Below, piece after piece: positions 49,476 to 51,587 of a stretch of DNA of 64,000 nt (positions are counted from its first letter, which is position 1; each line of letters starts with the position of its first letter). Origin of the DNA: Deltaproteobacteria bacterium (GTDB taxonomy: Bacteria > Desulfobacterota > Desulfobacteria > Desulfobacterales > G020354645); contig CP070652.1 of the NCBI GenBank assembly GCA_020354645.1, positions 4,563,145 to 4,627,144 of the forward strand. Direction: 5' to 3'. The position numbers were made by a program, and so were the translations under genes. The notes under the pieces were generated by a model. The model did no database searches, was not told the DNA's origin, and saw only the letters and a program-made list of their open reading frames with translations.

Positions 49476-49569
49476 CGTCACCCCTTCTTTCTCCTTTCTT
49501 TCTTGCAAAATATATCGAATCAATCTAACATTAGGGGCAGGCTTGATAAATAAGTGAAGGGGTGTCATT

Positions 49570-50076
49570 ATGAAAAGGCTTTTTATTAAACGGTTTTTGT
49601 TTCACTTATTTATAGTTATATTATTTTTAATGCCGATTTCCGCCAATTTTTGTTTTGCTGAAAAAATGAGGTTCGGTGAATGGGTATGTGCGGAAGAAAC
49701 TGACCCGGCGACAGAAAAGAAAACTAAAAAGATTGGAACTTTTGCAAAAGATGGTGTGAGTTCGCTATGGGTGACCGAATCTGACCTCGGCAGCGGAATG
49801 ATACAACTGACTTTAAAATCAAAAAATATTATCGATTCCGAGCACTTTTCTTATAGCATCGACAAAAATAAAGCGTTGACGCTTAGTACGGCTTCCCGAA
49901 CGTGTGAATCATATTGTTTAACAGAATATGTAATGAAAAATAGTAAGTTAATTGAGATCATGAAAAGAAGTTATCGTATAATGTTTGAATACTATACTTA
50001 CCCCGAAATAGCCAATCAGCCGACCTTCTCGCTGATAGGCTTTACCAAAGCATATGGTTGGCTGCTAAATGAGTAG
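49570..50076 (+). CDS. Secreted protein of unknown function
   Basis: 168 residues with AAGGGGTG seven bases before the ATG. A clear signal peptide ends at about residue 30 (FLFHLFIVILFLMPISANFCFA). The mature part is rich in beta strands and has three cysteines (FGEWVCAEE; RTCESYCLTE). The phrase MRFGEWVCAEETDPATEKKT is sometimes seen in small periplasmic proteins of Proteobacteria, but no function is known. The gene is AT-rich compared with its left neighbour, the first of an AT-rich patch that includes the tRNA cassette. Confidence 0.75.
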   Translation: MKRLFIKRFLFHLFIVILFLMPISANFCFAEKMRFGEWVCAEETDPATEKKTKKIGTFAKDGVSSLWVTESDLGSGMIQLTLKSKNIIDSEHFSYSIDKNKALTLSTASRTCESYCLTEYVMKNSKLIEIMKRSYRIMFEYYTYPEIANQPTFSLIGFTKAYGWLLNE

Positions 50077-50300
50077 ACCATTGGATGCTGAAGTTCAGCA
50101 GTCTCTATCAATTCAATTTTTAATATTTTACTTGCCTATTTCCATCCTATATTGTATACTCCCCAAAAATTTTGAGGGATAAAAATTTGATCGCAAATCG
50201 TCTAAAAAAAATTCAAACAAAATTCTTCAGCCAGCATTTGTGGCGACTTTATAAAGAGGATAAAACCTCGATCAGATAATCAATTTTCAGCGTGAAATCA

Positions 50301-50337
50301 AAACCCTTTCAGTTTTCATGCTGAAAGGGTTTTTTTA
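50301..50337 (+). terminator. Strong intrinsic terminator
   Basis: AAACCCTTTCAG (50301-50312) and CTGAAAGGGTTT (50321-50332) form a perfect 12 bp stem with an 8-base loop, followed by T7 with the stem end included. It is 225 bases past the secreted-protein stop codon, so it may end a separate small transcript as well. The 50077-50300 segment holds no gene. Confidence 0.8.
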
Positions 50338-50493
50338 TTAAAAGAAGGTGAGTAAACCGAAAAATGCGTTGGTTTCTGAAACATCGACAAATATTTAGCG
50401 AAAGTAATAATTACGCGGAAACATTGATTCCAGTTAATTGGATGCTCTTTTGTACCCAAAATTTGAACGGTATACATTGTTTTGATTTACCGA

Positions 50494-50513
50494 AAGGAGA
50501 AGAGCCTATGTAG
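50494..50513 (+). promoter_or_regulatory. Ribosome site followed by ATG-TAG (start-stop)
   Basis: AAGGAG at 50494-50499 is 8 bases before ATG (50508-50510), which is immediately followed by TAG (50511-50513). The transcript would end at the terminator at 50542-50585. A possible TATACA box lies at 50471-50476. It may be a minimal start-stop element or the remains of a gene. Confidence 0.4.
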
Positions 50514-50585: not shown

Positions 50586-50742
50586 GGGCAAATTTTGGGT
50601 CATCCGCTCAGACGGCAGCACACCCGACTGATACCATTCGTTCGATTCCGATAAGGATTCACTACAAATAAAGCGGGAAGCTTGGTGTCGATATCCAATC
50701 ACAGGGTGATAGCTGTATTAATTGGAGAATCAAGCAATTATG

Positions 50743-50818
50743 GTGGGGGTAGCTTAACCGGCAGAGCACCAGGTTGCGGCCCTGATTGGTAGCGGTTCGA
50801 TTCCTCTCCCTCACCCCA
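50743..50818 (+). tRNA. tRNA with His-type acceptor and GCG anticodon
   Basis: 76 bases with CCA encoded. Acceptor GTGGGGG pairs with CCCTCAC (one G-T pair). D arm is GCTT with GAGC. The anticodon stem is CCAGG with CCTGA (outermost pair C-A mismatched) around loop TTGCGGC, so the anticodon is GCG (codons CGC/CGU, Arg). T arm is AGCGG and CCTCT around TTCGATT, with one mismatch. The discriminator is C73 and the base before G1 is G, giving the G-1:C73 pair that marks tRNA-His. Normal His anticodon is GTG. The mismatches and 8-9 bases TA are typical of a divergent, perhaps phage-derived, tRNA. Confidence 0.78.
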
Positions 50819-50837: not shown

Positions 50838-50911
50838 GGTTCTGTAGCTCAGTGGCAGAGCGCATGCCTTATAAGCGTGTGACCCAGGTTCGATTCCCGG
50901 CAGAACCACCA
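50838..50911 (+). tRNA. tRNA-Ile with TAT anticodon
   Basis: 74 bases with CCA encoded. Acceptor GGTTCTG and CAGAACC pair perfectly. D arm is GCTC/GAGC. Anticodon stem CATGC/GCGTG holds loop CTTATAA, anticodon TAT for AUA codons. T arm is CCAGG/CCCGG with one mismatch, and the discriminator is A. Most bacteria read AUA with a CAT-anticodon tRNA modified to lysidine; TAT versions are rare. It lies 19 bases upstream of the HNH start codon. Confidence 0.85.
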
Positions 50912-50930: not shown

Positions 50931-51440
50931 ATGAACACTGCATGCATTCTGCTAAACGGTGACTACACCTTTCTTCGGCTTGTTGACTGGAAAAAGGCCA
51001 TATGCCTGGTTATCGCCGATAAGGTAGTCGTCCTGAAGTACTCGGATAGAACTATCCGGGGCGTCGGAAAGGTGTTTCCGGTCCCCGCGGTTCTTGCGCT
51101 GATAAAAATTGTGCGAAGTGTTTATCGCAGCAAAGTACCCTTCAGCAAAAAGAATGTCCTGATCCGTGACCGATTTACTTGCGCCTACTGTGGGGCAAAA
51201 GAAAAACCGTTCACGATTGACCACGTGATTCCACAGTCAAAAGGTGGCAAAACCGATTGGGAGAATTGTGTAACGTGCTGCCAGGAGTGCAATAACAAGA
51301 AAGGATCTCGACTGCCGGGAGAAACGGGAATGCATCTGATAAGACGGCCTTTCCAGCCGACCATTGCCGAGTTCATCAGGATTCGGCTTGAGCAGTCGGG
51401 GGTATACGACTTCTTAGTCGAACTGGGTATTTACAGTTAA
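50931..51440 (+). CDS. HNH endonuclease
   Basis: 169 residues. The HNH core is C84-x2-C87 (FTCAYC), D97-H98 (FTIDHVIPQSKGG) and C117-x2-C120-N121 (CQECNN); the cysteine pairs bind structural zinc and the His and Asn the catalytic metal. The N-terminal 75 residues (LNGDYTFLRLVDWKKAICLVIADKVVVL) are those of the common stand-alone HNH group found in phages and bacterial genomes. It is placed between tRNA genes, with an ATGGAAAAATGA overlap just before its start, so translation may be coupled to a three-codon peptide. It may be a homing-type or phage-derived nuclease. Confidence 0.9.
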   Translation: MNTACILLNGDYTFLRLVDWKKAICLVIADKVVVLKYSDRTIRGVGKVFPVPAVLALIKIVRSVYRSKVPFSKKNVLIRDRFTCAYCGAKEKPFTIDHVIPQSKGGKTDWENCVTCCQECNNKKGSRLPGETGMHLIRRPFQPTIAEFIRIRLEQSGVYDFLVELGIYS

Positions 51441-51509: not shown

Positions 51510-51587
51510 GGAGAGGTAGCTCAGCGAGGTAGAGCATCAGGGTGAAATCCTGAGTTTGCGCTGGTTCAATTCCGGCCCTCTCCGCCA
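51510..51587 (+). tRNA. tRNA with GAA (Phe) anticodon and G73
   Basis: 78 bases with CCA encoded. Acceptor GGAGAGG and CCTCTCC pair perfectly; D arm GCTC/GAGC; anticodon stem TCAGG/CCTGA perfect with loop GTGAAAT, anticodon GAA; T arm GCTGG/CCGGC around TTCAATT. The discriminator is G, whereas A73 is the usual element for phenylalanyl-tRNA synthetase, and base 32 is G. These differences suggest a divergent or foreign tRNA. Confidence 0.83.

Follow-up and report, generated by a model that had tools for sequence, protein, structure and literature searches.

A histidine-derived tRNA gene with an arginine-codon anticodon in a small tRNA/HNH cluster of a deltaproteobacterium

Introduction

The G-1:C73 pair is the main histidine signal of tRNA and is sufficient for a minihelix to accept histidine, with the anticodon also important; arginine identity depends on A20, on the anticodon, chiefly its C35, and on a purine, A or G, at position 73 (PMC9976931). 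The 64,000-nucleotide window analysed here contains a tRNA gene at 50743–50818 on the plus strand that, according to an earlier note on this DNA, joins a histidine-type acceptor to an anticodon for arginine codons. From which tRNA does this gene descend, which synthetase would charge its product, and is the product likely to misread arginine codons?

Results

ARAGORN calls the gene at 50743–50818 as tRNA-Arg(gcg). Rfam family RF00005 matches 50743–50815 at 49.5 bits, where the gathering score is 29, and 19/21 canonical stem pairs are kept, which places the gene within the family. The acceptor stem is GTGGGGG/CCCTCAC, base 73 is C, and the CCA end is encoded. Base 50742 on the plus strand is G, an encoded extra 5' base (G-1) that would pair with C73. 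The D-arm is GCTTAACCGGCAGAGC with C at position 20, and the anticodon loop TTGCGGC gives the anticodon GCG at 50776–50778 (plus strand), where the native tRNA-His of the host has GTG, the difference being a U35-to-C change at 50777. Direct reading of the sequence thus bears out the earlier note on G-1, C73, the CCA end, the loop, the anticodon and C20. Measured against bacterial tRNA-His of the G-1 type, the gene has G-1, C73 and a body nearest to tRNA-His, but not the GUG anticodon. Measured against bacterial tRNA-Arg, it has an anticodon with C35 that reads arginine codons, but C20 and C73 in place of A20 and A or G at 73. The whole histidine acceptor signal is therefore combined with C35 alone of the arginine set.

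The ancestry of the gene was examined by nearest relatives, profiles and a tree. Among 446 collected tRNAs, the 14 nearest to the GCG tRNA are all tRNA-His. Profiles with the anticodon masked gave 35.2 bits for His and 22.3 bits for Arg, favouring His by 13 bits; held-out tRNA-His score 61–71 bits on the His profile, so that the value for the GCG tRNA is about half of theirs. In the tree it falls among the tRNA-His of the order, with most forks weak. These results support the description of the gene as histidine-type apart from its anticodon. C73 is almost confined to tRNA-His in the collected set, where it occurs in 26/28 of them; the other cases are the GCG tRNA and a copy from Neptuniibacter described below (both called Arg), two tRNA-Pro and one tRNA-Asn. 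The native tRNA-His of the host and of its relatives likewise have G at -1. At position 20, 98 viral tRNA-His have T in 80 cases and C in 11, and the C20 of the GCG tRNA is accordingly explained by its histidine ancestry. The earlier note had contrasted C20 with the A20 of arginine tRNAs; the base is as it said, but it is not a separate peculiarity, since tRNA-His normally has a pyrimidine there. Given the weak forks, the sequence may derive either from the host's own tRNA-His or from a gene that arrived with a tRNA array.

The host genome consists of one contig of 5.57 Mb. Its tRNA list is a partial inventory, in which 150 of 285 candidates were scored and some expected tRNAs are absent. A separate normal tRNA-His(GTG) with G-1 and C73 is located beside tRNA-Arg(TCG) at C1:4369295, and the same His-Arg pair is found in 13/14 loci examined in members of the same order. 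Five ordinary tRNA-Arg genes were found (ACG, TCG, CCG, CCT and TCT). One HisRS and one ArgRS score above the family cut-offs. Since normal tRNA-His(GTG) and tRNA-Arg genes are present, the GCG gene is an extra. The codons that it could address occur in the main ORFs of the window at about 12.7 (CGC) and 7.7 (CGT) per 1000 codons, together about 20. These codons should normally be read by tRNA-Arg(ACG). Elsewhere the host carries a candidate tRNA-Pyl(CTA) at G000:C1:3085985-3086058 and a candidate tRNA-SeC(TCA) at 1103995-1104092 of the same contig. A second small tRNA cluster (Pro, Asn, Thr and Trp; L020, L055) occupies G000:C1:448168-448491; its tRNA-Pro seems to have C73, and a tRNA match adjoining its Trp end scores only 34 bits.

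The GCG tRNA is the first member of a cluster on the plus strand. About 20 bases after it lies tRNA-Ile(TAT) at 50838–50911 (ARAGORN, Rfam), which in a phage collection comes nearest to a cyanophage S-T4 tRNA (83.6%). It is followed by a gene for an HNH endonuclease of 169 aa at 50931–51440 (Pfam HNH_5/HNH, phrog_16726) and by a second tRNA-Phe(GAA) with G73 at 51510–51587 (ARAGORN, Rfam), an ordinary tRNA-Phe being present elsewhere in the host. Redundant tRNAs are thus clustered with an HNH gene, as in HNH-associated tRNA arrays, although the cluster is small, with three tRNAs. Relatives of the HNH protein are found among tRNAs in two viral contigs (L070, L071) and in two members of the order (L112, L113), and for many further relatives there is no tRNA in the neighbourhood. 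The flanking ORFs that were scanned contain no integrase or structural phage gene and encode mostly metabolic and transport functions. The HNH gene, the redundancy of the tRNAs and the analogy with known arrays suggest that the cluster is probably the remnant of a mobile tRNA array.

Several other features of the cluster and of the related loci were recorded. With its G73 the cluster tRNA-Phe stands apart from the other collected tRNA-Phe, which have A73 (eight A, one G); its acceptor, GGAGAGG/CCTCTCC with G73, is that of the host tRNA-Ser(CGA). Between a dehydrogenase gene and the cluster, positions 49500–50500 are A+T-rich (GC 34–36% against about 50% around), with a terminator-like hairpin at 50300–50333. 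A phage array contains, at L071:4901-4989, a class II-shaped tRNA-His with GTG anticodon, G-1 and C73, in which the variable arm is long and the D-arm resembles that of tRNA-Leu. Another has, at L070:5261-5333 beside the HNH relative, a tRNA called as Pyl whose anticodon is CUA; masked profiles score it best as His in a small comparison. A 'Pro(agg)' call in L112 was considered as a further identity-shifted array tRNA and rejected as, in our own reading, an ARAGORN misparse of a probable tRNA-Leu(TAG).

The search of related genomes that the earlier note had recommended covered 390 genomes of the host's class. A pattern of the His D-arm followed by TTGYGR, which admits C or T at position 35, matches in 282/390 genomes, and the C35 form is found in the host genome and in no other. 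Because only 1/390 class genomes has it, the idea that His-type GCG tRNAs form a conserved class was dropped. Across about 85,000 species, six matches were obtained with a similar but somewhat stricter pattern, some of the searched collections leaving out the host genome's own record. One of the six is tRNA-His-bodied and comes from a Neptuniibacter MAG (G390:C53:12844-12886; L080). This copy differs from a neighbouring tRNA-His by a single T-to-C change and extends to the end of its contig, inside a sequence that occurs three times. It was discounted as a second independent case, because a contig end within a repeat points to a probable assembly or read error.

In viral contigs, the GCG pattern with the His D-arm gave three matches, none of them His, and a pattern of GCG with C73 gave two, neither a tRNA; a comparable pattern picked out at least 120 stretches of viral His(GTG). 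Viral tRNA-Arg(GCG) with the same loop start have A20 and A or G at 73 in 80/80 cases. An ordinary phage tRNA-Arg(GCG) is ruled out by this comparison, as the gene studied here has C20 and C73. A literature search found no tRNA-His with a GCG anticodon.

The state of the fold was compared with that of the native tRNA-His. Pairing is lost at two stem positions, 27-43 (C.A) and 51-63 (C.U). The cloverleaf has a ViennaRNA energy of -21.9 kcal/mol, 9 kcal/mol weaker than the -30.9 kcal/mol of the native tRNA-His, and the minimum free energy structure of the gene (-26.3 kcal/mol) is not a cloverleaf. The fold z-score is 0.18. The earlier statement that the gene folds as a tRNA therefore needs one qualification, on account of the broken pairs and the predicted minimum energy fold. 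The gene differs from the host's native tRNA-His at 20/76 bases, with two pairs broken and 0/15 invariant positions changed. In a neutral simulation against the native gene, such conservation arose jointly in about 5 of 100,000 draws (P ~5e-5). Pairs 6:67, 29:41 and 50:64 carry changes on both sides that keep the pairing, and 15-48 has gone from G-C to A-U. Since the invariants are kept and compensatory changes have accumulated, the gene was maintained as a working tRNA for much of its history. This constraint is a record of past function and does not date C35, which may have been the last to arise. Relaxation at present is suggested by the weak cloverleaf and its two mismatches.

Discussion

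We hold, with moderate confidence, that the gene is a redundant His-derived tRNA in a small HNH cluster that underwent an alloacceptor shift from GUG to GCG, and that its product would be charged chiefly, though less efficiently, by HisRS and would cause slight misreading at most. A single change, U35 to C, would have turned the anticodon of a spare array tRNA-His from GUG into GCG. If transcribed and folded, the product would be a substrate mainly of HisRS, through G-1:C73 and with lowered efficiency, and a poor one of ArgRS. A guide is offered by the E. coli tRNA-His carrying the anticodon CUA, whose charging by HisRS falls about 20-fold and which still inserts histidine (PMC3875453); by analogy, reduced HisRS charging is expected for the GCG tRNA. 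At most a little histidine would be placed at CGC and CGU, in competition with tRNA-Arg(ACG). Given the frequency of these codons, and with tRNA-Arg(ACG) expected to read them, efficient misreading is unlikely, as it would be costly. Little selection would now act on the gene, which would be drifting towards loss.

A rival view is that the gene is already a dead relic, untranscribed or not stably folded, the anticodon change being just one among the many drift mutations of a pseudo-tRNA. We regard this as rather unlikely. It would account for the two broken pairs, for a cloverleaf that lies 9 kcal/mol below native strength and 4.4 kcal/mol above the gene's own minimum, and for the z-score near zero, and no strong promoter-like site was seen close upstream of the gene. 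Against it, 15/15 checked invariants and the encoded CCA are retained, the compensatory pairs and the exchange at 15-48 are those of a maintained tRNA, and the Rfam score is well over gathering. At the opposite extreme, the gene could be a missense tRNA kept for its function, either by usefully inserting histidine at CGC/CGU or as a decoy in phage-host conflict. The complete G-1:C73 acceptor with an arginine-codon anticodon and the past structural constraint are in keeping with such a role, and tRNAs of phages are able to counteract defences that target tRNA (PMC10264068, PMC11555353). The GCG state was nonetheless found in none of the other class genomes, nor in viral contigs together with a His D-arm or with C73, misreading of some 20 codons per 1000 in the window genes should be costly if efficient, and the host has no dedicated second HisRS; we consider a selected role very improbable. 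Only slightly less improbable is a natural missense tRNA in a broader sense, that is, an expressed tRNA-His of a mobile array to which HisRS attaches histidine for insertion at CGC/CGU, with an outcome that the cell, or the element that brought the tRNA, tolerates or exploits. The suggestions in the earlier note of regular miscoding, of a decoy or of a substrate for a tRNA-cleaving system find no direct support in a redundant single-copy gene whose GCG state recurs in no relative and whose fold is partly eroded.

The product might instead be a remodelled, working arginine tRNA that ArgRS charges through C35 and G36. Both bases are present, and the anticodon is the prominent arginine determinant in yeast (PMC9976931), but A20 and A/G73 are missing, C38 is kept, the 80 viral tRNA-Arg(GCG) all have the bases missing here, and G-1:C73 still favours HisRS. 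We give this proposal very little credence. The same holds for the proposal that the gene is an ordinary spare tRNA-His, with the C at 50777 being a sequencing error or C35 being edited to U in the RNA. The GCG tRNA is single copy, and the only other case found, in Neptuniibacter, sits at a contig end in a repeat and is itself probably an error; the gene studied here, however, lies in the middle of a 5.57-Mb contig. As 20/76 positions already differ from the native gene, a further true substitution is likelier than an error at 50777. We know of no C35-to-U editing in bacteria.

The preferred reading, a shifted and now relaxing tRNA-His, has parallels among known systems, of which the alloacceptor shift is the closest published one. 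In alloacceptor shifts, a redundant tRNA gene takes the anticodon of another amino acid by one substitution, mostly at position 35, and 30/31 such shifts in the survey of Rogers and Griffiths-Jones (2014) are eukaryotic (PMC3923123). The GCG tRNA shares the redundant gene and the single position-35 change to an arginine anticodon, and resembles tRNAs for a different amino acid more than tRNAs with its own anticodon. It differs in that the original acceptor identity is fully kept, so that mischarging rather than a clean switch is predicted. It is a variant of the alloacceptor shift, set apart by an acceptor identity that was retained and by its place in an array. As for that setting, the sections of a mycobacterial study on which we draw describe redundant tRNAs interspersed with HNH endonuclease genes in chromosomes, phages and plasmids, with HNH genes common in the array units (PMC5966550). 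Redundant tRNAs with an HNH gene are found here too, but with only three tRNAs and in a non-mycobacterial host, and those sections mention no identity-shifted tRNA. The E. coli amber suppressor likewise combines a tRNA-His body with a changed anticodon and an intact G-1, but it is an engineered nonsense suppressor, whereas the GCG anticodon is natural and addresses the sense codons CGC/CGU (PMC3875453). Phage tRNAs proposed to evade anticodon nucleases of the host are also mobile tRNAs with changes in the anticodon loop; their changes give insensitivity to the nuclease, whereas the GCG tRNA carries an anticodon at odds with its acceptor identity and has been linked to no cleaving system (PMC10264068).

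Anticodon shifts that change identity are rarely caught in bacteria. In this gene the acceptor identity stayed as it was when the anticodon changed, which makes the gene a clean natural test of G-1:C73 recognition by HisRS against anticodon recognition by ArgRS. If charged with histidine, the tRNA would be a natural source of ambiguous decoding. The locus suggests that redundant tRNAs of mobile arrays are places where errors of the genetic code can arise without immediate harm.
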